A stretch of DNA of 35,479 nucleotides, from the NCBI RefSeq assembly GCF_000374005.1, contig NZ_KB893143.1, positions 1 to 35,479 on the forward strand, written 5' to 3'. Below are positions 4,504 through 24,706 of this stretch, piece after piece. Under the pieces are notes generated by a model that made no database searches, was not told where the DNA came from, and worked only from the letters and a program-made list of their open reading frames with translations. A program made the position numbers and the translations under genes. The stretch's first letter is position 1. Each line of letters starts with the position of its first letter. This DNA is from Kiloniella laminariae DSM 19542. GTDB lineage: Bacteria; Pseudomonadota; Alphaproteobacteria; Kiloniellales; Kiloniellaceae.

Positions 4504-5604
4504 ATGAAGCAAGGTGTGACTGTCAATTTTGCCTTAATGGGATGTGGGCGTATAGCTCAACGTTATGCTGCTTTGTTGGCCGGAGGTGAGGTGTCGGGAG
4601 GGCGCCTTGTTGCTGTTTGTGATCCGCAAGGAGATCGGGCGGAACTGTTGGCGCAAAAGGTAGGGCTGCCATTTTTTAAAGACTTAAATGCTATGATGTC
4701 AGGGTACGGGGGGCTGATTGATGTTGTATGTGTTCTGACCGAGAGTGGACACCATGCCAGAGATGTTTTGAATGTTGTGCAAAAGTACGTCAAGCATGTC
4801 GTCGTTGAAAAGCCGATGGCTCTTACTTTAAGTGACGCAGACCAAATGATCGCACAGTGTGATCAAAAGGGCGTCAAATTATTCGTTGTTAAACAAAACC
4901 GGCTGAACCTTCCTGTTCAAAAACTGCGTGAGGCATTCAGCGAAGGCAGGTTTGGCAAACTTGTTATGGGGAGTGTGAAAGTACGTTGGCATAGGGATCA
5001 ATCATATTACGATCAAGATGATTGGCGAGGAACTTGGGCTTTGGATGGCGGTGTTTTTGCTAACCAGGCGAGCCATCATATAGACCTCCTCGAATGGTTT
5101 TTTGGTGAGCCAGTTAGCGTTTTTGCAAAATCTTCAACCAGCTTGGTTGACATTGAAGTTGAGGATACTGGGGCAGCGATTATTAAATTTAAGTCCGGTG
5201 CTATTTGCGTGGTCGAGGCAACTACAGCGGCCCGTCCAAATGATATTGAAGGTTCCCTTACTATTCTGGGAGAGAAGGGGAATGTTGAAATTGGCGGTTT
5301 TGCGGTGAATAAAATTTTGCGGTGGGAATTTTCAGAGCCAATGAAAGAGGACGATGAAATACTCCGGAATTTTTCAGAGAACCCTCCTGATGTTTATGGT
5401 TTTGGACATAAAGCTTATTTGGAAAATGTTGTAAAAGCTATTTCTTTGGGAGGAGCGTCGTTGGTTGACGGATTGGAAGGGCGCAAGTCTCTTGAGTTGA
5501 TTTCGGCCATTTATGAATCGATTGAAACAGGAAGAGAGATAGCGTTACGGTTTAGCCCTTCAAAATGTAAGTTGGGTGTGTTGCGCTCAGATTCTTCTTT
5601 ATGA
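4504..5604 (+). CDS. wbpB: WbpB/WlbA-like UDP-N-acetyl-2-amino-2-deoxyglucuronate dehydrogenase (Gfo/Idh/MocA family)
   Basis: A 366-residue NAD-dependent oxidoreductase. The Rossmann motif GCGRIAQ is at 14-19, EKP at 102-104 and the sugar-binding DGG...NQASHH segment at about 181-192. The run KQNRLN, YYDQDDWRGTW, VEDTG and LTILGEKGNVEIGG closely follows WbpB/WlbA, which oxidise C3 of UDP-GlcNAc-uronate before amination. The next gene, an aminotransferase, overlaps its stop codon by four bases (ATGA), repeating the known WbpB-WbpE partnership. A classical WbpA 6-dehydrogenase is not adjacent; the only related gene here (20199) lacks the catalytic Cys. The substrate assignment rests on sequence resemblance and context. 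Confidence 0.75.
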   Translation: MKQGVTVNFALMGCGRIAQRYAALLAGGEVSGGRLVAVCDPQGDRAELLAQKVGLPFFKDLNAMMSGYGGLIDVVCVLTESGHHARDVLNVVQKYVKHVVVEKPMALTLSDADQMIAQCDQKGVKLFVVKQNRLNLPVQKLREAFSEGRFGKLVMGSVKVRWHRDQSYYDQDDWRGTWALDGGVFANQASHHIDLLEWFFGEPVSVFAKSSTSLVDIEVEDTGAAIIKFKSGAICVVEATTAARPNDIEGSLTILGEKGNVEIGGFAVNKILRWEFSEPMKEDDEILRNFSENPPDVYGFGHKAYLENVVKAISLGGASLVDGLEGRKSLELISAIYESIETGREIALRFSPSKCKLGVLRSDSSL

Positions 5605-6701
5605 AGATACCTCTGGTCAATCTAGAAAGGCAACACAGACATCTTCGGGCAGAGTTAGCGGATGCTTATGGGAAAGTACTGGATAGTGGAAATTTTATTC
5701 AGGGAGACTTTGTTCGTCGATTTGAAACAGAGTTCGCGAAAGCTCAAGAACTGCCCAATGCTATTGGTTGCGCAAACGGAACTGTTGCTCTTGAAATTGC
5801 TTTACGGACCTTGGCGGTTGGGCCTGGTGACGAAGTTATTCTGCCTGCGCACACATTTATTGCCACTGCAGAAGCAGTTTGTGCGGTAGGGGCGATTCCT
5901 GTATTCGCAGATATTTCTATTGTCAGTCATACGATAACCGCAGAAGAAGTTCTGAAAGTGTCAACATCAAGAACCAAAGCCATCATACCTGTACACATAT
6001 ATGGCTTTCCGTGTCCTATGGGTGAGCTTCTTGACGTTGCAGAAGAACATAAATGGTTTGTGATTGAAGATTGTGCGCAAGCTCATGGATGTAGTCTTTT
6101 GGGGCATCCGGTTGGAAGTTTTGGAGATGCAGCATCCTTTAGTTTTTTCCCCGGAAAGAACCTGGGAGCCTTGGGAGATGCTGGAATTGTTTCTTTTCGG
6201 TCAGAGGAAAATGAAACCTACGCTAGATGCTTAATTAACCACGGCCGTTCGAGCAAAAATATCCATAGGTTGGTTGGTGGAAATTTCCGTATGGATGAAT
6301 TACAGGCGGCTTTCTTGTCTGTGAAATTACCTCGACTGCCAAAATGGAATGCGAACCGACGTGCTCGGGCCAAACAATATAGAGAAGCTTTGGGCTCAGA
6401 GGGGTACAGTAGCCCTACCTCTATACCCGGTGCAGACCCTGTCTATCATTTGTTCGTTGTCGCTGTGTCTAACAGGGATGAGGTGATTATGGCAATGGAA
6501 TCTGCAGGAATTAACTGCGGTATTCATTATTCACCATCCTGTCATTTGCAAGGTGCTATGTCTGGATATTGGCGGAAAGCTTTACCGAATGCCGAACAGA
6601 TTTCTAGCCAAACGATAAGCCTTCCTATCTGTGGGGAACTTAGTGCCTGTGATGTAGATATCGTCTTGTCTGAATTCTTGAAGATTGCTAAGCCAAATTA
6701 G
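5601..6701 (+). CDS. wbpE: DegT/DnrJ/EryC1/StrS aminotransferase (WbpE/WlbC-like)
   Basis: A 366-residue PLP-dependent sugar aminotransferase. The Schiff-base lysine is K186 in SFFPGKNLGALGD, the PLP-ring aspartate lies in IEDCAQAHG (about 157) and the phosphate-binding turn is in CANGTVALE. The ATG overlaps the upstream stop (ATGA), so translation is probably coupled to the WbpB-like dehydrogenase. With that partner it would convert the 3-keto sugar to a 3-amino sugar (UDP-GlcNAc3NA) using glutamate. The amine then needs an acyltransferase: no WbpD-type single-domain enzyme is present, which makes the lipoyl-acyltransferase at 10758 a candidate. Family certain; precise substrate inferred. 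Confidence 0.75.
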   Translation: MKIPLVNLERQHRHLRAELADAYGKVLDSGNFIQGDFVRRFETEFAKAQELPNAIGCANGTVALEIALRTLAVGPGDEVILPAHTFIATAEAVCAVGAIPVFADISIVSHTITAEEVLKVSTSRTKAIIPVHIYGFPCPMGELLDVAEEHKWFVIEDCAQAHGCSLLGHPVGSFGDAASFSFFPGKNLGALGDAGIVSFRSEENETYARCLINHGRSSKNIHRLVGGNFRMDELQAAFLSVKLPRLPKWNANRRARAKQYREALGSEGYSSPTSIPGADPVYHLFVVAVSNRDEVIMAMESAGINCGIHYSPSCHLQGAMSGYWRKALPNAEQISSQTISLPICGELSACDVDIVLSEFLKIAKPN

Positions 6702-8752: not shown

Positions 8753-8799
8753 TTGTTGAGCGTTTTGTATGATGTATGCGAAATAATTCAGGCAGAATC

Positions 8800-10761
8800 A
8801 TGAAGTCAAATATAGAGAAATATAAAAAAATTCTATTTACTCGCCGATTTGAAGAGCGATTACTTTCTGAGTTTGAGAATAATCAGATTAGAGGAACAAC
8901 GCATACTTCAATTGGGCAAGAGGCAGTTGCCGTTGCTGCGATGTCAGCGTTGGGCGAAAATGATGTTGTATTCTCAACGCATCGTTGTCATGCCCATTTC
9001 TTGGCATATGGTGGGGAGCCTCTCGCACTTTTGCACGAAATTATGGGTCATGAAGATGGTATTTGCCAAGGATATGGAGGATCTCAACATATTCATTGGC
9101 GCCAATTTTATTCCAATGGAATACAAGGTGGAAATTTACCTGTAGCTGCTGGTGCAGCGATGGCAGAGAAGCTCAATAATTCGAATGCTGTCGTCATGTG
9201 TTTTTTTGGAGATGGAACTCTTGGTGAGGGCGTGTTGTATGAGAGTTTTAATCTGGCATCTTTATGGAAATTGCCAGTTTTGTTCGTACTTGAAAATAAT
9301 CGCTACGCACAAAGTACGCCAATTGAAAAGGGGGTAGCAGGTAGTCTAAGTGATAGAGGGAGGGCTTTTGGAATTTCTGTAGATGAGATTGAAAGTAATG
9401 AGATTGGCGAACTTGAGGCAAGGTTCCATTCTGCTGTAAATTCCGTGAGGAAAACGGGCGCCCCTTTTTTGCAGATTATTCATTCATATCGTCTTGGTCC
9501 ACATAGTAAAGGAGATGATCACAGGAGTAGTGAAGAGATAAGATTTTGGAAAAAACAGGATCCATTATTTCTTGCTGGTCAAAAAATAGCTCCTCAGGTG
9601 CTGGAAAAATTGTCGCAAGACGTCACTAATACAATTGATAATCTTTTTTCCGTAGCGATATCAACACGGTACACTAATCAACGTAAGCCTCCTTTGCCAC
9701 GTCAATTGCCTGATCTGTATGATGGAACTGAAGCTTGGGTGAGTGGAGGAGAGACGGCTTGTGTAAGAAGGTTAAACGAAACGTTCGCTATGCTACTTTC
9801 CAGTCAACCGAATGTTCATTTTATTGGTGAAGATATTGATGCTCCATATGGTGGTGCATTTAAAGTCATGGGAGATCTTTCACAATTTTTTCCTAAGCAG
9901 GTTCATTCTTCACCCATTTCTGAGGCTGGAATTACAGGACTTGCTAATGGCATGGCGTTGCGTGGATTAAGGCCTATAGTTGAAATAATGTTTGGAGATT
10001 TTTTGACCTTGGTTGTTGACCAGGTCGTCAACCATGCTGCTAAATTTGGTGCGATGTATGGTAATAATGTTTGTTGCCCGGTGATTATCCGTACGCCAGT
10101 GGGAGGCTACCGTGGCTACGGCCCGACCCACAGCCAATGTCTGGAAAAGTTGTTCTTTGGAATACCTGGTTTAATCGTAACGGCATTAAGTCCGATACAT
10201 GCGCCTGAGCTTTTGTGGCGTAGAATGTTAGAGATAGATATACCTTGTCTTCATATTGAAAACAAAACCTTATACGGACGATATTTTATTCCGAAAACTG
10301 ATGGCCGTGTGGCTGGATTTTTAGCTTCATCCTATGGAGATTTTTTTCCGACACTGTTTTTAAATCCAGTTGCAAAAAATGAATCTGTCGATTTGACGAT
10401 TATAGCTTATGGAGGAATGGTAGAGCTTGCTCTTGACGTTTCTCGCCAGTTATTTGTTGAATCGGAAAAGATTGTTGAGGTTGTCGTGCCCAGTATGATT
10501 TCTCCAATACCTATCGACGCAATTTATTCCGCAGCCCAAAGAACAGATGCGATAATCACTTTGGAAGAAGGTACAAAAGCGAATGGGTGGGGGGCTGAAA
10601 TTATCGCACAGTTGAGTGAAATAATGGGGGAAAGCTTACCTAAAGTTATGAGAATTGCGGCTTTAGACACTATAATCCCGAGTAGTATTGAGCTTGAAGC
10701 GTTGGTTCTGCCCCGTATGGATACAATTATTAAACATGCAAAATCGTTGATGAGAAGATGA
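8800..10761 (+). CDS. Fused alpha-beta E1 component of a 2-oxoacid dehydrogenase (TPP-dependent)
   Basis: About 653 residues combining both halves of a heterotetrameric-type E1. The alpha half (about 1-300) has the TPP motif GDG at 137-139 and NN at 166-167, preceded by STHRCHAHFLAYGG and followed by YRLGPHSKGDDHR, matching the E1-alpha regulatory loop. The beta half (from about 315) has FIGEDIDAPYGGAF and the catalytic-type SPISEAGITG (E375). Such enzymes decarboxylate a 2-oxoacid and load the acyl group on a lipoyl arm. The ATG at 8800 has AGG eight bases before it; an in-frame ATG at 8776 does not. It overlaps the next gene, a lipoyl-domain sugar acyltransferase, by four bases, with no E2 core or E3 nearby. 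That implies a biosynthetic role in glycan acylation instead of central metabolism. The 2-oxoacid used is unknown. Confidence 0.8.
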   Translation: MKSNIEKYKKILFTRRFEERLLSEFENNQIRGTTHTSIGQEAVAVAAMSALGENDVVFSTHRCHAHFLAYGGEPLALLHEIMGHEDGICQGYGGSQHIHWRQFYSNGIQGGNLPVAAGAAMAEKLNNSNAVVMCFFGDGTLGEGVLYESFNLASLWKLPVLFVLENNRYAQSTPIEKGVAGSLSDRGRAFGISVDEIESNEIGELEARFHSAVNSVRKTGAPFLQIIHSYRLGPHSKGDDHRSSEEIRFWKKQDPLFLAGQKIAPQVLEKLSQDVTNTIDNLFSVAISTRYTNQRKPPLPRQLPDLYDGTEAWVSGGETACVRRLNETFAMLLSSQPNVHFIGEDIDAPYGGAFKVMGDLSQFFPKQVHSSPISEAGITGLANGMALRGLRPIVEIMFGDFLTLVVDQVVNHAAKFGAMYGNNVCCPVIIRTPVGGYRGYGPTHSQCLEKLFFGIPGLIVTALSPIHAPELLWRRMLEIDIPCLHIENKTLYGRYFIPKTDGRVAGFLASSYGDFFPTLFLNPVAKNESVDLTIIAYGGMVELALDVSRQLFVESEKIVEVVVPSMISPIPIDAIYSAAQRTDAIITLEEGTKANGWGAEIIAQLSEIMGESLPKVMRIAALDTIIPSSIELEALVLPRMDTIIKHAKSLMRR

Positions 10762-11846
10762 CTAATCCAATCTACATACCCAGAGTTAATGCAAATGACG
10801 ATATGGTCGTCGTTGTCAGTCTTAATGTGTCTGGAGGAGATATGGTCAATGTTGATGCTGTCTTGGGTCAAGTTGAAACAACAAAAGCGACGATTGATAT
10901 TGTTTCTACTGCTAATGGGTATTTCTACCCCAGGGTTGAAATTGGTGAGATTCTTCCAGTAGGTAATCTGTTTGGACACGTTCTAGATAATGAAGATCCA
11001 ATTTTTCTTGAAACTAAAAATGAAAAGCCATGGGACAGAGCACAGCTGCTCGTTTCAGATGCTGCTCGTGCATTATTGGATAAGCATGGATTAGCCCTTG
11101 ATAATTTCTCAAATAATCAGGCCCTAAGGGCTGAGGACGTCGTTCAGTATCTCGGGTTGATCAACAAGAAAGCCATGTCTAATGATTTTGTGGCGAAAAT
11201 CAACTCTGTTCCGAACCCCTTAATAATTTATGGAGCGGGACGTCATGGGCTTGTGGTATATGATGCTGTAATTGCGGGAGGTGAATATACGCCGGTTCTT
11301 TTGGTGGATGATAGCCCTGATTTGGATGACGGTTTTTATGACTTACCGATTTTGTCCCTTGATCAGTTAGAGCAAGTTGTATTTGAGACAGTCCCTTTTT
11401 TCCATATTGCAATCGGGGCTGTACCGTTGGCGAAAGAAGCCAGGAAAAAATGTCAAGATTTAGGGTTCGCCTCGGCAAAAGTTATCCACCCAATGGCATA
11501 TGTTTCTCCTTTAGCCGAAGTTGGTGAAGGTGTTTTTATTGGGCCGCAAACGGTTGTTGGCCCCAAAGTTGTTATAGGTGACATGGTTCACGTTAATAAT
11601 GGCGCAACTATTGCACATCATTGTTCTGTTGGTTGTTATGCACGTATCAGTGATGGGGCGCATTTAGGAGGGGCCGTCTCTGTCGGCGAAGGGACATTAA
11701 TAGGTATAGGTTGTGCGATTAATAAGGATATTGTGATTGGTTGTAATTGTACGGTCGTTTCTGGGGTAACGGTATTTGACAATCTGGAAGATAATATCGT
11801 TTTGCGGAGTGATGGAACCCTTTATTATTCTCGGCAAAGTGATTGA
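10758..11846 (+). CDS. Lipoyl domain + E3/E1-binding-like domain + NeuD/PglD-type sugar acyltransferase fusion
   Basis: A 362-residue three-part protein. Residues 1-75 form a biotinyl/lipoyl domain with the modifiable lysine K43 in VETTKATID. Residues about 98-133 (SDAARALLDKHGLAL...LRAEDVVQYL) look like the peripheral subunit-binding domain of E2 proteins, though the usual GTGxxGR loop is shortened. Residues about 154-350 are a NeuD/PglD acyltransferase: a Rossmann start IIYGAGRHG, then hexapeptide repeats with the catalytic-type His in ATIAHHCSVG (H287/H288). The start overlaps the E1 stop (ATGA). The E2 catalytic core is replaced by a sugar acyltransferase, so the likely role is transfer of an E1-generated acyl group from lipoyl-lysine to an amino sugar. 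Domains are visible; the direct transfer is inference. It might instead use acyl-CoA in the usual way. Confidence 0.78.
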   Translation: MTNPIYIPRVNANDDMVVVVSLNVSGGDMVNVDAVLGQVETTKATIDIVSTANGYFYPRVEIGEILPVGNLFGHVLDNEDPIFLETKNEKPWDRAQLLVSDAARALLDKHGLALDNFSNNQALRAEDVVQYLGLINKKAMSNDFVAKINSVPNPLIIYGAGRHGLVVYDAVIAGGEYTPVLLVDDSPDLDDGFYDLPILSLDQLEQVVFETVPFFHIAIGAVPLAKEARKKCQDLGFASAKVIHPMAYVSPLAEVGEGVFIGPQTVVGPKVVIGDMVHVNNGATIAHHCSVGCYARISDGAHLGGAVSVGEGTLIGIGCAINKDIVIGCNCTVVSGVTVFDNLEDNIVLRSDGTLYYSRQSD

Positions 11847-11864: not shown

Positions 11865-13172
11865 TTGAGCTCGGACATTAAAAAAAGAGATATGATTAAT
11901 GAATTGACCGAAATTCTTGATTCAGGAGATTTGACTAAAGCCGTTATTTTTTACGATGAAACTCTTGGAAAATACCCTGAATGTTCAGAGATTTTGAGTC
12001 TGCGAAACGGTATCATTGTGCGTATTCGAAAAGCAATATCAGAGGTTACAGGAAAAGAAGGAATTGATGCTTTAGCTAAATTTAGTAAATCACCAGAAAT
12101 AGCTCATCTTGATGTTGGAAATGGATGTAATCTGCGATGTGTGTATTGTTGGGAGGCAACACGGCCTGAGCACTTGAATGTGGTTGCTCTTCCGACAGAA
12201 GAATTAAAAAAGAAATTAATATGGATGAAAGATATTGGGGTCAAGAAAGCTCGTATTAGTGGATTTGGCGAAGTTACAATTATGCCGAATTGGGCCGAAG
12301 TTGTTCGTTTTGCACAAGAATTAGGATTAAAGACTGGATTAATTACAAATCTTTCTAAACGATTATCAGAAAAAGAAATAGAAGTATTGGCTGGTGTTGA
12401 TGAAATTACAATCAGCGTGGATACCCTAAATGAAGAGAAGTCAGCTGAAATTCGAAAAGGTTTGAGAATTGAGGTGCTTAAAGATAACCTACGGGCTTTA
12501 CGGTTAAAGAAGCCCTATCCTTCTGCACCAATAATCGGCTGGAATTCGGTGACTATGGCCGAAACGCTTGATGATTTAGCCCAGCTTGTTGAGGAGGGGA
12601 TTGAATTTGGGGCACATGGTTTCATGTTTAATTCAATGTTTGTACTCCAAGGGTTGAAGGGGGCAACGCCGATCGGTTTTCTGCCTCCAGCAGGAATCCT
12701 TTATGCCAAGGAATGCCTACTCCGAGCTCAGAAAATTGCAAAAGATGCCGGGAGGTACTGTATTATTGATGCTGCCCTTTACGACCTCATTATGGGTAAT
12801 AACCAGGTAAAAAATAAATGTAATACAGCACCTTCTGGTGTTGTTATCGGGAAATCTAACCAAAGCCATTATCTCGAAGGATATTTCGAACCTGTTCGTC
12901 CAGGTAATACTAGACTTTGCCTTCATCCTTGGAATCACTTGACCTTGACAGGGAAGACCGAAGTAGCTGTGTGTTGTGAGGTTGGTGGTGTTGAATTGCC
13001 TGCTGAGAATACTTACTCGTCGGGTCCGTTGTTTGAGCTAAAAAAGGGTTTGTTAACAGGGAATTTAGCACAGAATTGCCAAAAATGCCGACTTGCTCCA
13101 GAAGTGTCAGTCGAAGCACAGCAGTATAATGTATTAAAATTATATCGTAAAACAGGCAACTCGCCATCGTGA
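11865..13172 (+). CDS. Radical SAM protein with C-terminal SPASM-like cysteines
   Basis: A 435-residue radical SAM enzyme. The [4Fe-4S] motif CNLRCVYC places C88, C92 and C95; RISGFGEVT and ITISVD follow as expected for the partial TIM barrel. The C-terminal part has further cysteines (CLHPWNHLTLTG, VAVCCEVGG, NCQKCRL) resembling a SPASM/twitch auxiliary cluster domain. The first 70 residues are helical and TPR-like (AVIFYDETLGKYPECSEILSL). The TTG start has AGAGG at proper spacing. The next gene starts inside its stop codon (GTGA). In glycan clusters such proteins may carry out radical sugar chemistry (dehydrogenation, dehydration or epimerisation), but no reaction can be assigned here. Confidence 0.8.
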   Translation: MSSDIKKRDMINELTEILDSGDLTKAVIFYDETLGKYPECSEILSLRNGIIVRIRKAISEVTGKEGIDALAKFSKSPEIAHLDVGNGCNLRCVYCWEATRPEHLNVVALPTEELKKKLIWMKDIGVKKARISGFGEVTIMPNWAEVVRFAQELGLKTGLITNLSKRLSEKEIEVLAGVDEITISVDTLNEEKSAEIRKGLRIEVLKDNLRALRLKKPYPSAPIIGWNSVTMAETLDDLAQLVEEGIEFGAHGFMFNSMFVLQGLKGATPIGFLPPAGILYAKECLLRAQKIAKDAGRYCIIDAALYDLIMGNNQVKNKCNTAPSGVVIGKSNQSHYLEGYFEPVRPGNTRLCLHPWNHLTLTGKTEVAVCCEVGGVELPAENTYSSGPLFELKKGLLTGNLAQNCQKCRLAPEVSVEAQQYNVLKLYRKTGNSPS

Positions 13173-14467: not shown

Positions 14468-15745
14468 ATGTCTACAAACACTGCTAAATTGTCGTATCTT
14501 GATTTGGGAAAAAAGATTGAAGGCCATGCACCAAGAGTTCGGCACCTTCAGGAGTTTGGCTATACTTATCCTACTCATCTGACATTAGGCTTGGTGACGT
14601 ATTGTGATCAGTTTTGTAAAGGCTGTTATGCTGGTAGTTACCGCTTTAATCCGAAGATCATGTTCACTGCTTCACTTGAGGTTCTTAAGTCTCAATTGAA
14701 GCAGGCAGCTTCTGTGGGGAGGGAATATGAAGAAATATCTCATCCATTTTATTCTAAAGAAACTCTTGGTTTAAAGGCTGTTACGCTTGTTGGATCAGGT
14801 GAACCTTTATTGTATCCGCATCTTACTCAACTGCTGTACTATATGAAAGATGAGCTCGGATTAGATATTGGGATATATACAAACGGAAATAATATGGGTG
14901 ATAAAGGAGATTCCCCAAAAGATTTTATCGCCACGAGCATGCTAGAAACGATGCGTTTTATTCGTGTTTCTCTTGATGCAGCCTCGTCTGAAACTCATGC
15001 GATTGAACGAGGTGTTAAAGGGCAATTTTCAACAATTATTAAAAATATTGAAAACCTTGTGAAGAGAAGAGACGTACTCGGGCTAAGTGAACCGACCCTG
15101 GGAATTCAATTCACAGTTGATGATCATAATAGCCACGAAATTATCAAAATAGCTGAAATTGCTGCAGATTTAGGGGTTGATTATCTTGCTTATAAGCCGA
15201 AGTACCTTGCCGCACATGTGAAAACTAGGATACGCAATACTTCGACATCTCTTGAAAGCATACAAAAAAGTATTGATGCAGCTAAAGAATACGAAAATTC
15301 TCGACTTTCCATACATGGCAAAGCAATTCAGTTCGAAGAAGTTTGGGGCGAAGAGAAGTTTAATGATGGATTACAATATCGTGGATGCACTGGAATATGG
15401 TTGACGGGGTATATGGACGTTGATGTTGAATCTCCTGATCGGGATGATGCAAATATGAGGTATTTCATCTGTGTAAATAAATCCAAGAGCAGTAAAATGG
15501 GGGATGGTCAATATGAATGGTCACATGGACCTATTGGGGCAAAAAGTGATTTTTCAATAGAGTGGCGGAAGGGGATAGGGGAGATGTCTGATAGAGTTCG
15601 CCTAAAGAACTGTATCGCTGGATGTCGTAATGATCCCCATAATCGCATCTTGGATGGATTGTTATTTGAGCCGTCAGATAAACTCAATGAGCTATCGCAA
15701 AATCGGATATCTTTGCCACGAGATTGTCACGGAAATCACCTGTAA
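14468..15745 (+). CDS. Radical SAM protein (second)
   Basis: A 425-residue radical SAM enzyme. The cluster-binding motif CDQFCKGC gives C46, C50 and C53; TLVGSGEPLLYPH and IYTNGN follow, and RVSLDAAS marks a later barrel strand. The C-terminal region has scattered cysteines (RGCTGIW, YFICVNKS, LKNCIAGCRNDPHN) that could hold an auxiliary Fe-S cluster. It is clearly distinct from the radical SAM protein at 11865. The next gene, an NAD-dependent epimerase/reductase, starts 16 bases after its stop. Radical SAM dehydratase plus NAD(P)H reductase pairs are known in aminoglycoside deoxygenation (AprD4/AprD3), so joint deoxygenation or epimerisation of a sugar is a reasonable inference, not a demonstrated role. 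Confidence 0.78.
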   Translation: MSTNTAKLSYLDLGKKIEGHAPRVRHLQEFGYTYPTHLTLGLVTYCDQFCKGCYAGSYRFNPKIMFTASLEVLKSQLKQAASVGREYEEISHPFYSKETLGLKAVTLVGSGEPLLYPHLTQLLYYMKDELGLDIGIYTNGNNMGDKGDSPKDFIATSMLETMRFIRVSLDAASSETHAIERGVKGQFSTIIKNIENLVKRRDVLGLSEPTLGIQFTVDDHNSHEIIKIAEIAADLGVDYLAYKPKYLAAHVKTRIRNTSTSLESIQKSIDAAKEYENSRLSIHGKAIQFEEVWGEEKFNDGLQYRGCTGIWLTGYMDVDVESPDRDDANMRYFICVNKSKSSKMGDGQYEWSHGPIGAKSDFSIEWRKGIGEMSDRVRLKNCIAGCRNDPHNRILDGLLFEPSDKLNELSQNRISLPRDCHGNHL

Positions 15746-17776: not shown

Positions 17777-17835
17777 ATCCATTTATTTTTAATTTCGCCC
17801 TAGTTTTCTTGGGTAGTATGATTGAGGAAGAGCGG

Positions 17836-18417
17836 ATGGATTTTCAAAATTACCTGGATGAAGTAGCCAGAATATGTTCCGAGCTCAAGTCTAAAGATTA
17901 TGAAGCTATTGCCCAAGAATTATTAAAACTAAAGAAGCAGCAGGGAAGGCTATTCATACTCGGTGTTGGCGGGAGTGCTGCCAACTGCTCTCATGCCGTA
18001 AATGATTTTCGAAAACTTTGTAATATTGAAGCTTACGCACCTGTTGATAATGTTTCGGAATTGACTGCACGAACGAATGATGAAGGCTGGTGCTCTGTAT
18101 TTGTTGAATGGCTTAAAGTTAGCAGGTTGTCTGAAAAAGACGTTATTATGATCTTTTCCGTGGGTGGGGGCGATGCTGAACGTAATCTATCTGTTAACCT
18201 TATCCGTGCTATCGACTTCGCCAGAAATAGGGGGGCCAAAATTGTATCGATTCTTGGGCGACATGGTGGGTACGCTGAGAAAAATTCGGATAGATGCATT
18301 GTTGTTCCCACAATGAAAGCGGAGCTTGTTACTCCATTAGGAGAAGCATTCCAGGCCATTATTTGGCACGCTCTGGTGAGTGATGAAAGGTTACAAGAAC
18401 ACAAAACCGTTTGGTGA
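17836..18417 (+). CDS. SIS-domain phosphosugar isomerase (GmhA-like)
   Basis: About 194 residues, a single SIS domain like sedoheptulose-7-phosphate isomerase. The phosphosugar loop GVGGSAANCSH is near 43-53, SELTARTNDEGW follows, and IFSVGGG and VPLGEAFQAIIWH-like segments (TPLGEAFQAIIW) close the fold. The ATG at 17836 has GAGGA at good spacing; TTG 17809 and ATG 17818 are in-frame alternatives. GmhA converts sedoheptulose-7-phosphate to a heptose-7-phosphate. A transaldolase that could make that ketose lies directly downstream, and kinase/phosphatase/nucleotidyltransferase partners follow within 7 kb. The exact ketose may differ from sedoheptulose. Confidence 0.75.
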   Translation: MDFQNYLDEVARICSELKSKDYEAIAQELLKLKKQQGRLFILGVGGSAANCSHAVNDFRKLCNIEAYAPVDNVSELTARTNDEGWCSVFVEWLKVSRLSEKDVIMIFSVGGGDAERNLSVNLIRAIDFARNRGAKIVSILGRHGGYAEKNSDRCIVVPTMKAELVTPLGEAFQAIIWHALVSDERLQEHKTVW

Positions 18418-18502
18418 TTTTTGTGTTTTGGTTGGGGCGTTAGTAATCCCAAAAGATACAGGTGAAATATTTTGTTTCTATTTCCAAACAAAAGGGCGGG
18501 TG

Positions 18503-19204
18503 ATGTCGATCCTGTTATATTTAGATAGTGCGAACTTAGATGAAATAAGGGGCGCGGCTAAAGATGAAACGATTGGGGGAATTACGACCAATCCAACATT
18601 GATGCGCAAATCAGGCATATCTAATTACGAAGAATTTGCAAGAAAAGCTCTGGAAATTATCCCAAATAAGCCTGTTTCCTTCGAAGTTTTCTCAGACGAT
18701 TTTGACGCCATGAAAAGAGAAGCCAGGATAATTGCAAGCTGGGGGGAGAATGCATTTGTTAAAATACCTGTTTCGACTACGGGAGGAGAGTTAACTTTCC
18801 CCTTAATCCAAGAGCTCTCAAGTGAAGGGTTGCAATTAAATATCACTGCTGTTTTTACGTTGGATCAGGTGCGTGGGGTTTCACGGGTTTTATCAAAAAC
18901 TACTCCAGCAATAATTTCCATTTTTTCTGGACGGCTTGCTGACTCAGGTCAAGATCCTGAAGTGATATTTCAAAAGTCGGTTGATATTTGTCGCGATCAG
19001 AAAAATGTGAAATTGCTGTGGGCAAGTACGCGGGAGATTTTTAATATTGTTCAAGCAGAACGCTCTGGAGCTGATATTATAACTGTTACAGCAGATTTGC
19101 TTGGTAAGCGGGAGCTTTGGGGGAAGGATCCAGATGAGTTTTGCCGTGAGACAGTTCAAATGTTTTATAACGATGCTTTGGCGACCGGTTATAAAATTGG
19201 GTAA
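18503..19204 (+). CDS. Transaldolase-family protein (short TalC/FSA-like form)
   Basis: A 233-residue protein of the small transaldolase/fructose-6-phosphate aldolase group. D8 (LYLDSAN), N30 (TTNPT) and the Schiff-base lysine K87 (FVKIPVS) are in place. The residue after VSF is Glu (E61), as in transaldolases; fructose-6-phosphate aldolase has Gln there. The ATG has GGGCGGG just upstream. Transaldolase with fructose-6-phosphate and erythrose-4-phosphate gives sedoheptulose-7-phosphate, the substrate of the GmhA-like gene before it. A private transaldolase in a glycan cluster suggests a dedicated supply of the seven-carbon (or other long-chain) ketose phosphate. Confidence 0.85.
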   Translation: MSILLYLDSANLDEIRGAAKDETIGGITTNPTLMRKSGISNYEEFARKALEIIPNKPVSFEVFSDDFDAMKREARIIASWGENAFVKIPVSTTGGELTFPLIQELSSEGLQLNITAVFTLDQVRGVSRVLSKTTPAIISIFSGRLADSGQDPEVIFQKSVDICRDQKNVKLLWASTREIFNIVQAERSGADIITVTADLLGKRELWGKDPDEFCRETVQMFYNDALATGYKIG

Positions 19205-19248
19205 CTTCTTTATTTCAATAAATCAAATATGGATATGATTTAAATACG

Positions 19249-20199
19249 ATGCGTGTGATTATTTGCGGGTTGGGAAATCAAGGAAAAAAAAGATCACGTG
19301 TTGCTGGTGATGATGTTTGCGCAATGATTGATCCAATAGCTGTCGAGGCCGATTATAATAAATTTTCCGCTATTTCAGACTTGTCTTTTGAAGCCGGACT
19401 GATCTGTACACCAGAATACGAAAAGCTGAGTTTGATTAAATCACTACTGGATTCTGGTAAACATGTAATGGTCGAAAAACCATTGTATTCCAGTAATCAC
19501 ACTGAACTTCTTGAGTTGTTTAAATATGCTCGGGCGAACAATAAAGCTCTTTATGTTGCATATAATCATCGCTTTGAGCCCCATATACAGACTGCTAAAG
19601 ACCTCTTGGAACGTGGGAGTTTTGGGGCGATTTATAGTGTTAAAATGTTCTATGGGAATGGCACAGCACAAGATGTTCGGTCATCGCCTTGGAGAGATAG
19701 CGGGCTTGGTGTCCTCGGAGATTTGGGGTGTCACTTACTAGATTTGACATTGTTTTTACTTGGACCAAAAACCAAATCCGCCACATTTATGCCGTGGATC
19801 GTTAAGAGTAATGAAAACAAAGCTCCTGACTATTGCCTCTTTGGTACTCAAGGTTCTTCAAACTGCCCAAGGATCGTTCTCGAGGCTAGTTTACTCTCCT
19901 GGCGGAATATGTTCTCGATAGAGATTGTATGCGAAAAAGGAAGTTTACTAATTGATTCCTTATGTAAGTGGGGAAGAAGTACTCTTACTGTAAGGATGCG
20001 AAAATACCCAAGCGGTCGCCCTGACGAAAAGATCACGACAATAGTTGCGGACGATGTCACCTGGGAGCATGAATATTCTTTTTTCAAAGATCTTTGTTCT
20101 GATTTGGGAGGATATGATTGGGAGCGAGATATTTGGATTAATACTGTTATGCAGAAGCTAGCTCCTGAGCTTTTCTGTCAAATTGGTGGAGAGATTTAG
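19249..20199 (+). CDS. Gfo/Idh/MocA-family oxidoreductase
   Basis: A 316-residue NAD(P)-dependent sugar oxidoreductase. The Rossmann motif is ICGLGNQGKKR (5-15), EKP is at 76-78, and GDLGCHLLDL carries the active-site-type histidine. It is shorter than most family members and unlike the WbpB-like gene at 4504 in its C-terminal half. Its stop shares one base with the GTG start of the next gene (TAGTG), so the two are probably translated together. Context inside the heptose-like module suggests oxidation or reduction of a heptose or amino-heptose intermediate, but the substrate cannot be read from sequence. Confidence 0.78.
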   Translation: MRVIICGLGNQGKKRSRVAGDDVCAMIDPIAVEADYNKFSAISDLSFEAGLICTPEYEKLSLIKSLLDSGKHVMVEKPLYSSNHTELLELFKYARANNKALYVAYNHRFEPHIQTAKDLLERGSFGAIYSVKMFYGNGTAQDVRSSPWRDSGLGVLGDLGCHLLDLTLFLLGPKTKSATFMPWIVKSNENKAPDYCLFGTQGSSNCPRIVLEASLLSWRNMFSIEIVCEKGSLLIDSLCKWGRSTLTVRMRKYPSGRPDEKITTIVADDVTWEHEYSFFKDLCSDLGGYDWERDIWINTVMQKLAPELFCQIGGEI

Positions 20200-21467
20200 T
20201 GGAAGGACAGATTGCTGTTGCAGGACTGTCTCATATGGGAATTGTGATGGCGGCAACGTTTGCGGCCAAGGGTATGAATGTCGTTGCAATTTCAGAAAAT
20301 TCCTCTCTTGTTGACAAGTTAAAGAAGGGGGAGGCGAATATAAGTGAGCCCGGGTTGGAGGCGGTTCTTTTAAATGTTGGCGACCAAATTATATTCAGTA
20401 CGGATGATGCATTATTGTCAGAATGCCAACTGATTTTTTGTTGCTTGGATGTGCCCACTTCGGATTCAGGAGAAAGTGATCTGAGTTCTGTCTCTAGATA
20501 TCTTGATCTGATCGAAAGGCGTGCTCCAGCGAGTGTAGTGGTGATTATGAGCCAGGTACCGCCTGGGTTTACTCGACAATGGGCTAAAACGCGTCAGTCG
20601 AATACCTATTACCAAGTAGAGACATTGGTTTTTGGTGAGGCGATGCAAAGAGCAAAAGCACCTGAAAGGATCATAATCGGCTCTGATGGAGGGGAGGATA
20701 AAGTTCCTCGGCTTTATCAAGATTTACTTGATAAATTTTCATGTCCTTTGTTTCATATGTCATTTGAAAGTGCTGAGATTGCTAAGATTTCCATAAATTT
20801 GATGCTGGTTGCATCTATTTCAGCCGCAAATACCCTCGCAGAGATCTGTGAAGCCCATACTGCGGATTGGTCGGATATCCAAAAAGTTCTGCATATGGAT
20901 CGCCGTATAGGTCCTTTTGCCTACCTTACTCCTGGGCTCGGGATTGCAGGTGGAAACCTTGAACGTGATCTTGAAACTATTGATAATTTACTCGTAAACG
21001 CTCATGACGATGTCGGAATTGTTGCTGCTTTCCGTCGGAATAGTTTATGGCGTAAAACGTGGCCGGAGAGGGTATTAGAAAGGGAGTTCGGTGATTCGTT
21101 AAAGGATTGTAGAGTAGCTTTGTGGGGACTGGCGTATAAATCCGAGACCGATTCTTTGAAAAATGCAGCCTCTCTCATATTGTTAAAATACCTTAGCTTA
21201 ACTCATGTCGCTATTTTTGACCCAGTAGTACAGTCTTTTACGCCTCAAAATTCAAACCATAGAGTAAGTCCGACCGCCTTGTCGGCCTGTGAAGGAGCAG
21301 ATGCTCTAATTGTCATCACACCGTGGAAACACTTTTCCAATTTGTGCCCTAAAGAAGTTGCCTCTGTAATGAAAGGCAACTTGGTTCTCGATCCTTTTTC
21401 ATGTTTGGACCGACAAGCTTGGGAAAAGGCTGGATATAAAGTTTTGGCGCTGGGACGTGGAATTTAA
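20199..21467 (+). CDS. UDP-glucose/GDP-mannose dehydrogenase homologue lacking the catalytic cysteine
   Basis: A 422-residue member of the nucleotide-sugar 6-dehydrogenase family. The N-terminal Rossmann motif is AVAGLSHMG and the C-terminal domain has ALWGLAYKSETDSLKNA, matching the family's conserved ending. Catalytic K196 and N200 are kept (EIAKISIN). However, the segment that normally reads GxGGxCxPKD is GIAGGNLERD: counting back from the conserved D257, the nucleophilic Cys is N253. Without it the enzyme should not complete the aldehyde-to-acid oxidation. It may do a single oxidation, act at another carbon, or have lost dehydrogenase activity. GTG start coupled to the preceding Gfo/Idh gene. 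Confidence 0.75.
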   Translation: MEGQIAVAGLSHMGIVMAATFAAKGMNVVAISENSSLVDKLKKGEANISEPGLEAVLLNVGDQIIFSTDDALLSECQLIFCCLDVPTSDSGESDLSSVSRYLDLIERRAPASVVVIMSQVPPGFTRQWAKTRQSNTYYQVETLVFGEAMQRAKAPERIIIGSDGGEDKVPRLYQDLLDKFSCPLFHMSFESAEIAKISINLMLVASISAANTLAEICEAHTADWSDIQKVLHMDRRIGPFAYLTPGLGIAGGNLERDLETIDNLLVNAHDDVGIVAAFRRNSLWRKTWPERVLEREFGDSLKDCRVALWGLAYKSETDSLKNAASLILLKYLSLTHVAIFDPVVQSFTPQNSNHRVSPTALSACEGADALIVITPWKHFSNLCPKEVASVMKGNLVLDPFSCLDRQAWEKAGYKVLALGRGI

Positions 21468-21473
21468 CTGGCT

Positions 21474-22352
21474 ATGTCAACGAGAAAACAAAAAGTAGCT
21501 GTTGTGACCGGGGCTAGCAAAGGTATTGGAGCAGGGGTCCGTGATTACTTACTCGAAGATGGATGGTTGGTATTCGGTCTATCTCGTTGGGCCGAAAAAT
21601 CGATTCATAAATCATACATTCCTGTCGTTTGTAACGTGTCTGATGAAACATCCGTCAAGGATGCTTTTTCTGTAATCTCAACACAAACGAAATTTTTAGA
21701 CGCTGTGATTAATGCCGCTGGTATCTATGGCCCCATAGGCCCTACACTTGATGTTCCTGTGGAGGAATGGCTTGAAACGTTTAAAGTTAATACCTTGGGG
21801 CCTTTACTGATAATACGAAATAGTATTGATCTATTAAAGAAGACAAAGGCGCCATCAATAGTCAATTTTGCCGGGGGAGGCGCATTTGATCCTTTACCTC
21901 GATACTCGGCGTATGCTGTTTCAAAATCAGCAATTGTTCGTCTTACGGAGACCCTTGCGGTAGAGTTCGGTCACGGCATTACTATTAATGCCGTTGCACC
22001 AGGATTTGTCGCTACCGAGATCCATCAAGCAACATTGAATGCAGGTGTTGAGATGGCGGGCGAGCAATTTTATGAGCATACCTTGCGTAAGCTTGAAGAA
22101 GGCGCAGTGCCTATTGAGTTGCCGGTTAAACTGGTTTCCTGGTTACTGTCTCCGTATACACGTGGGCTGACTGGGAAAACACTTAGTGCTAACTTTGATC
22201 CTTGGCAGAGCCCTGAATTTCCTGACCTTGTTGAGATGATTAATGCTTCGCCACTCTATACGATGAAACGGATCAACCCAGTTAACCTGGAGCAAGATGA
22301 TAAAGTCCTACGAAAGATGATCGTCGGGATTGATAATGTGTTGGAATTGTAA
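21474..22352 (+). CDS. Short-chain dehydrogenase/reductase
   Basis: A 292-residue classical SDR with TGASKGIG (12-19), NAAG (79-82) and the active-site pair Y146/K150 (YAVSK). The position 13 residues before the Tyr, normally Ser, is Gly in FAGGGAF, so the classical Ser-Tyr-Lys triad looks altered; Ser or Thr elsewhere may substitute. A C-terminal extension of about 45 residues follows the usual SDR end (from NFDPWQSPEF). The gene starts six bases after the upstream stop and its stop shares one base with the next ATG (TAATG). Probably a keto-sugar reductase of the heptose-like module; substrate unknown. Confidence 0.75.
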   Translation: MSTRKQKVAVVTGASKGIGAGVRDYLLEDGWLVFGLSRWAEKSIHKSYIPVVCNVSDETSVKDAFSVISTQTKFLDAVINAAGIYGPIGPTLDVPVEEWLETFKVNTLGPLLIIRNSIDLLKKTKAPSIVNFAGGGAFDPLPRYSAYAVSKSAIVRLTETLAVEFGHGITINAVAPGFVATEIHQATLNAGVEMAGEQFYEHTLRKLEEGAVPIELPVKLVSWLLSPYTRGLTGKTLSANFDPWQSPEFPDLVEMINASPLYTMKRINPVNLEQDDKVLRKMIVGIDNVLEL

Positions 22353-22897
22353 TGGGCAAGATCAAAGGGCTGTTTCTTGATCGTGATGGTGTTCTTAATT
22401 ACTCACTAATTAGAGAAGGAAAGCCCTTTGCGCCACGTTTTCTCTGTGACTTTAAGTTGTATGAAGAACTTAAGTGGGACTTGTTTCAACTCTCCGATCA
22501 GGGAATAAAAATAATTGTCGTTACCAATCAACCTGATCTGTCAACAGGAAAGCAGACACCAGAAATTTTATCAATAATGCATGAAAAATTGCTCGATACC
22601 TTTCCTATTGATGAGATACTGACTTGCCCACATATTGAAGAGCATGGTTGCTTTTGCCGTAAGCCTTTACCAGGCTTAATTCTTACTGCAGCACAAAAAT
22701 GGGATATTGACCTTGAGTCGAGTATTTTGATCGGTGATCGATGGCGTGATATTGAGGCTGGTATTGCTGCAGGTTGTTTTTCAATTTTTATTGATCATGG
22801 GTATGTTGAGAAGTATCCGAGCGGGATGGATTTAACGGTAACTCACCCCTTAGATGCCATACGTTTTTCCTGTGAAAAGCTTTTGGATTTGGGCTGA
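22352..22897 (+). CDS. gmhB: HAD phosphatase, GmhB-like (heptose bisphosphate 7-phosphatase)
   Basis: A 181-residue HAD-IIIA phosphatase. The DxD motif is DRDG (D10, D12), VTNQ is motif II, and the zinc-binding set C92, H94, C100, C102 (CPHIEEHGCFCRKP) marks the GmhB/HisB-N group. GmhB removes the 7-phosphate of D-glycero-manno-heptose 1,7-bisphosphate before nucleotide activation. It is followed by a strong hairpin terminator, ending this block, while the HldE-like kinase/nucleotidyltransferase that would act before and after it begins about 250 bases further on. Family and general reaction are well supported; the natural sugar is inferred from neighbours. Confidence 0.85.
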   Translation: MGKIKGLFLDRDGVLNYSLIREGKPFAPRFLCDFKLYEELKWDLFQLSDQGIKIIVVTNQPDLSTGKQTPEILSIMHEKLLDTFPIDEILTCPHIEEHGCFCRKPLPGLILTAAQKWDIDLESSILIGDRWRDIEAGIAAGCFSIFIDHGYVEKYPSGMDLTVTHPLDAIRFSCEKLLDLG

Positions 22898-22936
22898 TTT
22901 TTTTTGAAAATATTATTTCCAGATTATATCTTTAAG

Positions 22937-22974
22937 AAAAAAGAAAGGCTGGGTAATAGCACCCTTTCTTTTTT
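22937..22974 (+). terminator. Rho-independent terminator
   Basis: AAAAAAGAAAGG (22937-22948) and CCTTTCTTTTTT (22963-22974) are perfect complements around a 14-base loop, giving a stem with a 3' T-rich arm about 40 bases after the gmhB-like stop. It is the strongest hairpin in the window and should end the transcript from upstream. Its A-rich 5' arm could also work for antisense transcripts. The remaining gap (22975-23142) has no visible gene and probably holds the promoter of the next gene, but I see no clear -35/-10 pair. Confidence 0.8.
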
Positions 22975-23142
22975 GTAAAGTATGGGGGAATTCTTTAGAA
23001 AAACGATAGGTTTCCTAGACAAAAATCAAGCCGATAAGCATAAGTAAAATTGTACGATATATATTTTAATTGAAATGTAAGTGAGAATCTTTGCTCGAAA
23101 AGATCAGGTTCTTTCATCAAGGAATTGGATTTAAGTAAAACC

Positions 23143-24678
23143 ATGAGTAAGCTATCGGATGCATACGGATACAAAGTTAAAACAGTTTCAGAGCTGCTTG
23201 AAGCGATAGGTACATTTCCCCGCGAAAAGAAAGTAGTAATGTGCCATGGTGTATTCGACTTGGTTCACCCAGGCCATCTTCGTCATTTGCTTTATGCGAA
23301 AGATAAGGCGAATATTCTCGTAGCTAGCCTAACGTCAGATCAACACATAAATAAAGCAGCGTATCGTCCCTATGTTCCCCAGGAGCTCAGGGCATTAAAC
23401 TTGGCAGCTCTAGAATTTGTTGATTATGTAATTATTGATGACAATGCGACCCCACTTGCAAATCTGCGAGAAGTAATGCCTGATGTTTTTGCCAAGGGTT
23501 TCGAGTATGATAATGGGCAGTTACACCCAAAGACTGTAGAAGAGCTAAATGTTCTTAATGAATATGGTGGAGAAATTCTTTTTACGCCTGGTGATGTTGT
23601 ATATTCTTCCTCAACTCTCATTGAAAAATTTCCTCCAAACTTATCAGTAGAAAAATTATTGGCAGTATTGGATGGTGAAGGCATTTGTTCAGAAGAATTG
23701 TTCTTAGCCTTAAACGATTTTTCGGATAAAAAAGTGCTCGTGGTCGGGGATACTATAGTCGATACCCTGACTCATAGTACTATGATTGGGGGGATGAGTA
23801 AGACGCCAACGATCTCTGTTCGTCGTGAATCTGTTGATAGTTTTGTCGGTGGTGCAGGTATAGTCAGTAAGCATATTAAAGCAGCAGGAGCTAATGTCGA
23901 ATTACTCACTGTTTTGGGCGAAGATATTCTTGGGCATTTTGTAAAGGAAGACCTTGCCCGTTATGGTGTCACTATTCACCCGGTCTATGAAACAGGACGC
24001 CCGACAACAGAAAAGAATGTGATTGTTGCGGCAGATTATCGGCTTTTGAAAATTGATGTTGTGGATAATCGTCCGATATCTAATCGTACGCTTGAGACCT
24101 TTATCGATATAATCAAGAATAGAGACTATGACTTGGTTATATTTTCGGATTTCCGGCACGGAATTTTCAATAAAACGACTATTTCTGAACTGGTTTCTGC
24201 AATTCCTGATACTACATTTAAAGCGGCAGATAGTCAGGTTGCTAGCCGATGGGGAAATATTACAGATTTCAAACAATTTAATTTGGTATGTCCAAATGAA
24301 CGTGAGGCTCGTTTCTCTCTTGCCGATCAGGATACAGGAGTGCGTCCGCTAGTGGCGAAACTGAGGCAAGCCTCCAAAAGCGACGTCGTAATTATGAAGA
24401 TGGGCGAGCGAGGTGTTATGGTGTGTCGCTCGGATAACGAGAACGATGTTCGTTCTTCATTTGTCATTGATAGTTTTGCAAGTGATGTTATTGATCCTGT
24501 GGGAGCTGGTGATGCCCTCTTAGCTTATGCTAGTCTTTCTTTATGTAGTAATCAGTCTCCAGTAATCGCTGCCGTACTTGGTTCCATTGCGGCAGCGCTT
24601 GAGTGCGCAGTTGATGGGAATGAACCTATCTTGCCTGAAGATATTCGTCTGCGGTTGGAAAAGATCTTTTCTATGTGA
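23143..24678 (+). CDS. Bifunctional nucleotidyltransferase + PfkB sugar kinase (HldE-like, domains swapped)
   Basis: About 511 residues. The N-terminal domain (about 28-165) is a cytidylyltransferase-like nucleotidyltransferase with HGVFDLVHPGH (HPGH at 42-45). The C-terminal domain (about 195-505) is a PfkB/ribokinase-type kinase, starting VLVVGDTIVDT and ending with the anion-hole motif DPVGAGD (catalytic D457). HldE of E. coli has the same two activities in the opposite order, kinase first. It would phosphorylate C1 of a heptose-7-phosphate and then add a nucleotide after dephosphorylation by the GmhB-like enzyme. The ATG at 23143 was preferred; a TTG at 23125 has its AAGGA too close. Sugar and nucleotide specificity are open. 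Confidence 0.82.
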   Translation: MSKLSDAYGYKVKTVSELLEAIGTFPREKKVVMCHGVFDLVHPGHLRHLLYAKDKANILVASLTSDQHINKAAYRPYVPQELRALNLAALEFVDYVIIDDNATPLANLREVMPDVFAKGFEYDNGQLHPKTVEELNVLNEYGGEILFTPGDVVYSSSTLIEKFPPNLSVEKLLAVLDGEGICSEELFLALNDFSDKKVLVVGDTIVDTLTHSTMIGGMSKTPTISVRRESVDSFVGGAGIVSKHIKAAGANVELLTVLGEDILGHFVKEDLARYGVTIHPVYETGRPTTEKNVIVAADYRLLKIDVVDNRPISNRTLETFIDIIKNRDYDLVIFSDFRHGIFNKTTISELVSAIPDTTFKAADSQVASRWGNITDFKQFNLVCPNEREARFSLADQDTGVRPLVAKLRQASKSDVVIMKMGERGVMVCRSDNENDVRSSFVIDSFASDVIDPVGAGDALLAYASLSLCSNQSPVIAAVLGSIAAALECAVDGNEPILPEDIRLRLEKIFSM

Positions 24679-24706
24679 TTATTAGTGTACTTTGAGAAAC
24701 TGCAAG

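Follow-up and report, generated by a model that had tools for sequence, protein, structure and literature searches.

A fused 2-oxoacid dehydrogenase E1 overlapping a lipoyl-NeuD fusion gene in Kiloniella laminariae suggests a lipoyl-dependent sugar acylation system

In the 2-oxoacid dehydrogenase complexes (pyruvate dehydrogenase [PDH], branched-chain keto acid dehydrogenase, and acetoin dehydrogenase), acyl groups pass from lipoyl-lysine to coenzyme A (CoA). Here, we analyzed a gene pair of Kiloniella laminariae DSM 19542 that resembles these complexes in part and the PglD/PerB/PglB/VioB/NeuD sugar N-acetyltransferases (TIGR03570) in part. The window, meaning the whole stretch of DNA analyzed, comprises 35,479 nucleotides (contig NZ_KB893143.1, positions 1 to 35,479). 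The pair consists of a fused alpha-beta E1 gene (8776 to 10761) and a gene encoding a lipoyl, subunit-binding, and PglD/NeuD fusion protein (10758 to 11846), both on the plus strand, as are all features of the pair given below. The complexes and the pair have in common the E1 alpha and beta domains with their motifs, a lipoyl domain with ETxK, a subunit-binding domain, and an E1 gene directly upstream. Unlike the complexes, the pair has a PglD/NeuD beta-helix instead of the E2 core (2-oxoacid_dh fold, HxxxDG) and lies in sugar-gene surroundings; because the E2 core is missing, it is not a member of them. Compared with the N-acetyltransferases, the fusion adds the lipoyl and binding domains and the linkage to an E1. 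By genome evidence, the pair is well supported as working like a biosynthetic 2-oxoacid dehydrogenase variant in which the E2 core is swapped for a PglD/NeuD sugar N-acyltransferase. The most likely mechanism, held with good confidence, is a lipoyl-fed acyl relay, in which the acyl group of a 2-oxo acid would go from lipoyl-lysine directly to an amino-sugar nucleotide, free of CoA.

The E1 (661 amino acids, with an alternative start at 8800) has the features of the thiamine diphosphate (ThDP)-dependent alpha-beta E1 component of a 2-oxoacid dehydrogenase complex, and the PDH-like NCBIfam models score below their cut-offs on it. The ThDP motif, GDG...ENN, was read from the sequence at residues 145 to 175 (9208 to 9300). 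In an alignment of the window E1 with seven relatives of 35 to 43% identity (alignment A1), G145, D146, G147, and N175 are invariant in all eight rows, as is E383 of the sequence PISEAG (9922 to 9924; E375 in the numbering of the first-pass annotation), which we take to be the equivalent of the cofactor-activating Glu59 of human PDH beta.

The fusion protein (362 amino acids) starts inside the end of the E1 gene, with a 4-base overlap between the E1 stop and the fusion start. Its lipoyl domain (residues 1 to 80; 10758 to 10997) was recognized by the predicted structural model and by family profiles, the Pfam score taken alone being sub-threshold. The predicted lipoylated lysine, K43 of the sequence ETTKA (10884 to 10886), sits in the model in the turn between strands 35 to 40 and 45 to 49, and K43 and E40 are each invariant in the 36 aligned fusions, as expected of a lipoyl domain with a modifiable lysine. 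A peripheral subunit-binding (E3/E1-binding) domain at approximately residues 97 to 134 (11046 to 11159) is indicated by the model and by comparison with a profile from which 12 of 33 rows were left out; Pfam E3_binding was absent among the matches listed for the fusion. Next, at the position of the E2 core, comes the PglD/NeuD left-handed beta-helix sugar N-acyltransferase domain (residues 152 to 357; 11211 to 11828), with its PglD_N nucleotide-sugar domain and hexapeptide (Hexapep) helix, and no match to an E2 catalytic core (2-oxoacid_dh, HxxxDG) was found in the fusion. PerB, PglB, PglD, VioB, and Pcryo_0637 are the best structural matches of the model among solved relatives; VIA-align covers mainly residues 151 to 362, and the lipoyl and binding domains rest instead on the model and the profile comparisons. 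The TIGR03570 score is 150.9 bits, under the curated cut-off of 160.8. By its domain the protein is thus a NeuD, but it falls short of the curated score and lacks the CoA-side motif described below. Overall, these domain matches, the model, and the alignments bear out the first-pass annotation, which had described a fused E1 overlapping a lipoyl/subunit-binding/NeuD gene by four bases. Of the three domains for which it had proposed a profile search, PglD/NeuD was found directly, the lipoyl domain by model and profiles, and the binding domain by the same means and not as Pfam E3_binding.

That one E1 lineage feeds either kind of partner is the best reason to think that NeuD substitutes for the E2 core in an acyl relay. 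In a tree of 91 E1s, from which L087 was left out for its incomplete E1 (L numbers denote loci), 87 fall in one clade (support of 100), apart from four PDH-type E1s. The partners seen within this clade are an E2 in 37 cases, a NeuD in 36, another beta-helix in three, and a lipoyl protein only in one, with none seen in 10. At least seven changes among NeuD, E2, and other left-handed beta-helix partners are needed on this tree, and the NeuD-type locus L014 is nested in a strongly supported, mostly E2-type clade of 23 rows. Individual placements are unsure because the tree was built quickly and includes long rows, such as L017. A topology with a single clade for the 36 NeuD-type as opposed to the 37 E2-type E1s was rejected by an approximately unbiased test chosen after tree inspection (P = 7e-10). 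Judging from these sequences, NeuD and E2 partners have been exchanged more than once within one E1 clade, in line with the earlier proposal that NeuD stands in for the E2 core. The NeuD tree requires four label changes, of which strongly supported branches force only one, and suggests several separate fusion events. Three further lipoyl proteins beside an E1 (L055:4056-5084, L062:4303-5346, and L053:11952-13550) have a C-terminal hexapeptide region and a weak match to the NeuD profile, and they seem to represent a further kind of partner swap.

To place the pair among its relatives, the E1 was used as query over 398 genomes of the phylum. At E ≤ 1e-90, 12 genomes matched: the window, seven with fused E1s (L011 to L017), and four with conventional split E1s (L018 to L021). 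All seven fused E1s adjoin a gene with an N-terminal lipoyl domain, followed by NeuD in three (L014, L016, and L017) and by an E2 core in four (L011, L012, L013, and L015). A scan of genome contigs with the E1 alignment gave 570 relatives. Among the best 80 of these, a lipoyl-NeuD gene lies within 1.4 kb of the E1 in 32 and a lipoyl-E2 gene lies beside it in 33; the three other-helix proteins, a lipoyl piece at a contig end (L098), and the incomplete E1 of L087 were also among them, and no lipoyl gene was seen near the E1 in 10. The architecture named in the first-pass annotation therefore recurs beside E1 genes, in 29 of the 36 NeuD-type loci at no more than 113 bases from the E1. The taxa include Anaerolineales/Chloroflexota, Planctomycetota, Myxococcales, Magnetospirillum, Desulfovibrio, Lachnospiraceae, Selenomonadaceae, Gemmatimonadetes, and Hydrogenedentes.

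The fusion was also searched for without regard to E1, using a profile of the fusion (A3) over the 398 genomes and scoring the best five candidates per genome. As a result, 76 genomes matched, and six full-length fusions were found (the window and genomes G696, G586, G666, G491, and G787), the remaining matches beginning no earlier than profile position 120, within the NeuD part or shortly ahead of it. An E1 lies directly upstream in all six, the contig of G586 ending inside it; homologues consistently lacking an adjacent E1, which would have spoken against the earlier proposal, were not what this search returned. A chance association or artefact was rejected, as the pair recurs in many phyla and in this E1-blind search. 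Recent vertical inheritance in the lineage of the window was not seen: no match was found at E ≤ 1e-20 among the 60 remaining genomes of the order or at E ≤ 1e-25 among the 384 remaining ones of the class, thresholds that would miss copies of about 25% identity, and G696, of the same class, was found later by profile. Among plasmids, none of 35 matching records covers 80% of the query, nor does any of five among phages, and the listed matches of both kinds lie within NeuD or immediately ahead of it; viral contigs gave no match.

In the proposed mechanism, the fused E1 would decarboxylate a 2-oxo acid on ThDP and then reductively acylate the lipoyl group that the fusion protein carries on K43. 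Its lipoyl domain would swing to the NeuD domain, assumed to be a trimer by analogy with its relatives, where His287 would activate the amine of the amino-sugar nucleotide bound there, and the acyl group would move directly from dihydrolipoyl-lysine to the sugar nitrogen, with no CoA involved. The dihydrolipoyl-lysine would then be re-oxidized by an E3 docked on the subunit-binding domain; this E3 would be of the housekeeping type in the genome of the window and a dedicated one in some relatives. The transferred group is probably other than plain acetyl, because a dedicated E1 would otherwise be superfluous. In this scheme, lipoylation, direct transfer, CoA independence, and an amine rather than a hydroxyl as acceptor are inferred.

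The catalytic and donor sides of the NeuD domain differ in their conservation. H287 (11616 to 11618) is, by alignment, the likely catalytic base, equivalent to PglD His125 and Pcryo_0637 His142, which are named as the likely active-site base in PMC8040287. It is conserved in all 36 fusions and in 51 of 52 stand-alone NeuDs, so the fusion has the catalytic histidine of the NeuD/PglD sugar N-acyltransferases. The same paper describes a conserved proline in the last turn as cis with CoA and trans without it (PMC8040287). Most stand-alone NeuDs have this CoA-linked turn as GxPA, and taking GxPA as a marker of CoA use rests on that single structure paper. The C-terminal tail of the window's fusion (11760 to 11843) has no GxPA by motif comparison, and the motif occurs in none of the 36 fusions as opposed to 42 of the 52 stand-alone proteins. 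The latter comprise two sets: TIGR03570 hits of the class (n = 28, after L128, the window itself, was removed from 29 NeuD places), with GxPA in the last 60 residues of 19, and the 24 profile matches available as loci (L152 to L175), the nearest relatives of the fusion by profile, with GxPA in 23. In the aligned proline column, proline is present in 5/36 fusions and 45/52 stand-alone proteins, and column 335 holds asparagine in 26 fusions and serine in eight (window included), as opposed to alanine in 43/52 stand-alone proteins. Since H287 is kept and GxPA is lost, the catalytic side appears retained and the CoA side remodelled.

These data bear on a different reading, in which NeuD works as a conventional sugar N-acyltransferase with acyl-CoA as donor, its attached lipoyl and binding domains serve only as a tether to the E1, and the E1 makes acyl-CoA by way of a housekeeping E2 elsewhere. 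The characterized relatives Pcryo_0637 and, as cited in the same paper, PglD use acetyl-CoA (PMC8040287), the NeuD fold is the same as that of these CoA users, and lipoyl proteins adjoin E3 genes on three contigs of the Kiloniella genome (C34, C24, and C6). However, no E2 core was found in the fusion or beside it in the scanned open reading frames (ORFs) of the window, GxPA is missing from every fusion and nearly universal in the nearest stand-alone relatives, the K43-type lysine is invariant, and a gene of the LplA family accompanies the pair in two clusters. Accordingly, we consider this reading unlikely.

Regarding the acceptor, the amino-sugar genes closest to the pair in the window, both on the plus strand, encode a Gfo/Idh/MocA dehydrogenase (4504 to 5604), a candidate 3-keto-sugar maker with a weak match to the UDP-GlcNAc 3-dehydrogenase model NF040723 (80.2 bits; cut-off, 450), and a DegT aminotransferase (5601 to 6701; 339.9 bits), a candidate for introducing the amino group that is then acylated. 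The product of these two enzymes (4504 to 6701), an amino sugar, would be the likeliest acceptor. Pfam was run on 30 of the 38 window ORFs of at least 100 amino acids, the other eight being one of 129 amino acids and seven on the minus strand that overlap other genes. No other hexapeptide, GNAT, or formyl transferase matched in the scanned ORFs, and the fusion is therefore the only acyltransferase candidate found on the 35-kb contig. No E3 matched in these ORFs either. Elsewhere in the genome, three E3s score over the TIGR01350 cut-off and LipA is present, so lipoylation and re-oxidation should be available.

Relatives of the pair also lie among sugar-pathway genes. DegT/PseC-like genes occur in 15 of 36 NeuD-type and 2 of 37 E2-type loci, the loci differing in length. 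In L051 (Lachnospiraceae), the order is PseB, PseC, PseF, PseI, E1, lipoyl-NeuD, LplA, E3, formyltransferase, deacetylase, and PseG; the first three and PseI score over cut-off, whereas PseG (136 bits; cut-off, 153.6), the lipoate-protein ligase (271; cut-off, 280), the dihydrolipoyl dehydrogenase (328; cut-off, 409), and the BshB1-like deacetylase (65; cut-off, 182.5), presumably of the PIG-L family, score below. No PseH matched among 10 L051 proteins (NCBIfam, E ≤ 1e-15). Pfam, run on six proteins (four of them new) with ORFs of 139 and 146 amino acids outside the scan, found no GNAT and did find an MBOAT as well as an Acyl_transf_3 membrane acyltransferase. L052 (Selenomonadaceae) carries E1, lipoyl-NeuD, and genes of the LplA and E3 families. 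In L139 (G666), the order is PseF/NeuA-like, NeuB, NeuC, E3, polysaccharide deacetylase, E1, and lipoyl-NeuD, with NeuC and E3 over cut-off and PseF/NeuA-like and NeuB under. L141 (G787) has PseB, PseC, and PseF over cut-off, then DegT, E1, and lipoyl-NeuD, and in L024 (Magnetospirillum moscoviense) DegT, E1, and lipoyl-NeuD are tightly packed. The E3 and LplA genes in such clusters (LplA in 2/36 NeuD-type loci) suggest that lipoylation and cycling of the lipoyl group do take place. The acylation module has a deacetylase next to it in L023, L051, L139, and the other-helix locus L053, which hints that an acetyl group may be exchanged for another acyl group.

Several observations weigh against the relay. 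The Pfam score of the lipoyl domain is sub-threshold, as mentioned above, and the loss of GxPA points to an altered donor side without being proof against CoA binding. GxPA is also missing from 10 of the 52 stand-alone NeuDs, and the looser GxP occurs in four of the 36 fusions (L016, L023, L034, and L079; 21/28 in the first stand-alone set). The 36 fusions share ancestry, and their rows are therefore not independent. Six of the 10 E1 loci without a visible lipoyl gene have fewer than 300 bases downstream; the other four have at least 1.4 kb (1.5 kb in L074 and approximately 10 kb in L065, L095, and L101), and tblastn found no fusion in them. Between E1 and fusion, 0.8 to 1.4 kb intervene in 6/36 NeuD-type loci, the two genes are divergent and 429 bases apart in L071, and the fusion precedes the E1 in L050 and L099. 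An E3 lies within the cluster in only 3/36 NeuD-type loci, a fourth (L045) being at the locus edge. Finally, the formyltransferase of L051 means that the lipoyl-NeuD protein is not the sole candidate for the missing PseH step, and in L023, where PseC and PseG both score over cut-off, a PseH-like gene matches weakly (55.7 bits; cut-off, 93.1).

Alternatively, the relay could be real and its acceptor a hydroxyl, giving O-acylation, or a non-sugar amine. Several other sugar-pathway genes lie in the window, but PerB, PglB, VioB, PglD, and Pcryo_0637 are amino-sugar acetyltransferases by their titles or prior knowledge, Asp184 of the nucleotide-sugar loop is conserved in 31/36 fusions, and aminotransferase genes accompany the pair at the frequency given above, which makes such an acceptor very unlikely. 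A further possibility, in which the E1 and its lipoyl partner domain move a carbanion or carry out a reduction, for example in C-C bond formation on a keto sugar, with NeuD as a sugar-binding trimer only, is most improbable: E1-type ThDP enzymes are able to carboligate, but the invariant NeuD histidine would be needless in a mere scaffold, and the partners in sister loci are transferase folds (E2 core and other left-handed beta-helix). Overall, lipoyl-dependent acylation of a sugar, as first proposed for this locus, is supported by genome and sequence evidence only.

Other genes of the window and of related loci were also noted. The run at 17809 to 25801 (SIS domain, transaldolase, Gfo/Idh, UDP-sugar dehydrogenase, SDR, HAD phosphatase, PfkB plus cytidylyltransferase, and DegT) looks like a heptose-like sugar pathway including a transaldolase. 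Just downstream of the fusion, two radical SAM proteins (11865 to 13172 and 14468 to 15745) score below the cut-offs of the NCBIfam models listed. In two UBP9 genomes, the gene immediately upstream of lipoyl-NeuD encodes a radical SAM protein that by eye resembles lysine aminomutase (L050:6567-9041 and L099:7336-9939); it has no clear relationship to the window radical SAM at 11865 (L050; best blastp E value of 0.043). The 825-amino-acid radical SAM-lipoyl-NeuD ORF of L050 was not counted as a true fusion because it contains an ambiguous residue and the genes are separate in the close relative L099. In Anaerolineae, a common gene of approximately 426 amino acids lies between E1 and lipoyl-NeuD (L032:12029-13306 and L036:7489-8772), likewise in L027, L041, L043, and L047; in this set, the in-between gene may also be of approximately 223 to 239 amino acids and on the opposite strand. 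L065, L095, and L101 are Planctomycetota/Phycisphaerales E1s of the same family.

Among the sister E2-type loci, the gene cluster with the phosphopantetheinyl transferase (PPTase)-family representative occurs in 18 of 37, as opposed to none of the 36 NeuD-type loci, the loci differing in length. The E2 motif ends in EG in 15 of the 37 proteins, in NG in five, in DG in five, and in another residue plus G in four, and DHR was not found in eight. Possibly, the E2 of the sister type loads the acyl group onto a carrier protein rather than CoA. The PPTase-superfamily neighbour at L049:13301-13942 has PF01648 at residues 109 to 195 and an N-terminal part of about 100 amino acids of unassigned kind. 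In Ruminiclostridium sufflavum DSM 19573 (L088:11965-19134), the E1 is followed by a 2,390-amino-acid protein whose first 1,345 residues include a lipoyl domain, an E2 core, a ketoacyl synthase, and a dehydratase; this protein joins a 2-oxoacid dehydrogenase E2 to a polyketide synthase.

Two further known systems invite comparison. With the pseudaminic acid pathway (PseB-C-H-G-I-F), L051 and L141 share PseB, PseC, and PseF over cut-off, and L051 also PseI, with PseG just below; unlike the pathway, L051 has no PseH match and has E1, lipoyl-NeuD, LplA, E3, and a formyltransferase. The lipoate-binding proteins LbpA, which act in sulfur oxidation with specific lipoate ligases, set a precedent in that they are lipoyl proteins that do not belong to the classic complexes (PMC6067878). 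Unlike the pair, LbpA serves sulfur oxidation and not acyl transfer, and the available text of that source mentions no E1 or acyltransferase (PMC6067878). A literature search, with most subscription journals and preprints outside its coverage, found no description of a lipoyl-to-sugar acyl relay.

The case is evenly balanced for a widespread and so far unrecognized class of CoA-independent acylation systems, in which biosynthetic E1s would load lipoyl-lysine from 2-oxo acids and interchangeable C-terminal transferases would deliver the acyl group to different acceptors. The acceptors would be amino-sugar nucleotides for NeuD and at least one further beta-helix type and, for the E2-core type, possibly acyl-carrier proteins or polyketide synthases. 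The sugars would receive acyl groups other than acetyl, in some loci probably once a deacetylase has freed the amine. A small pair with overlapping genes, the system in the window is tractable with two or three purified proteins. If the proposal is true, passing acyl groups from lipoyl to sugar would be a new reaction and would give lipoic acid a new role, and it could explain unusual N-acyl groups on bacterial surface sugars as made directly from 2-oxo acids. It would also mean that one of the most familiar enzyme complexes has an exchangeable module in its E2 core.

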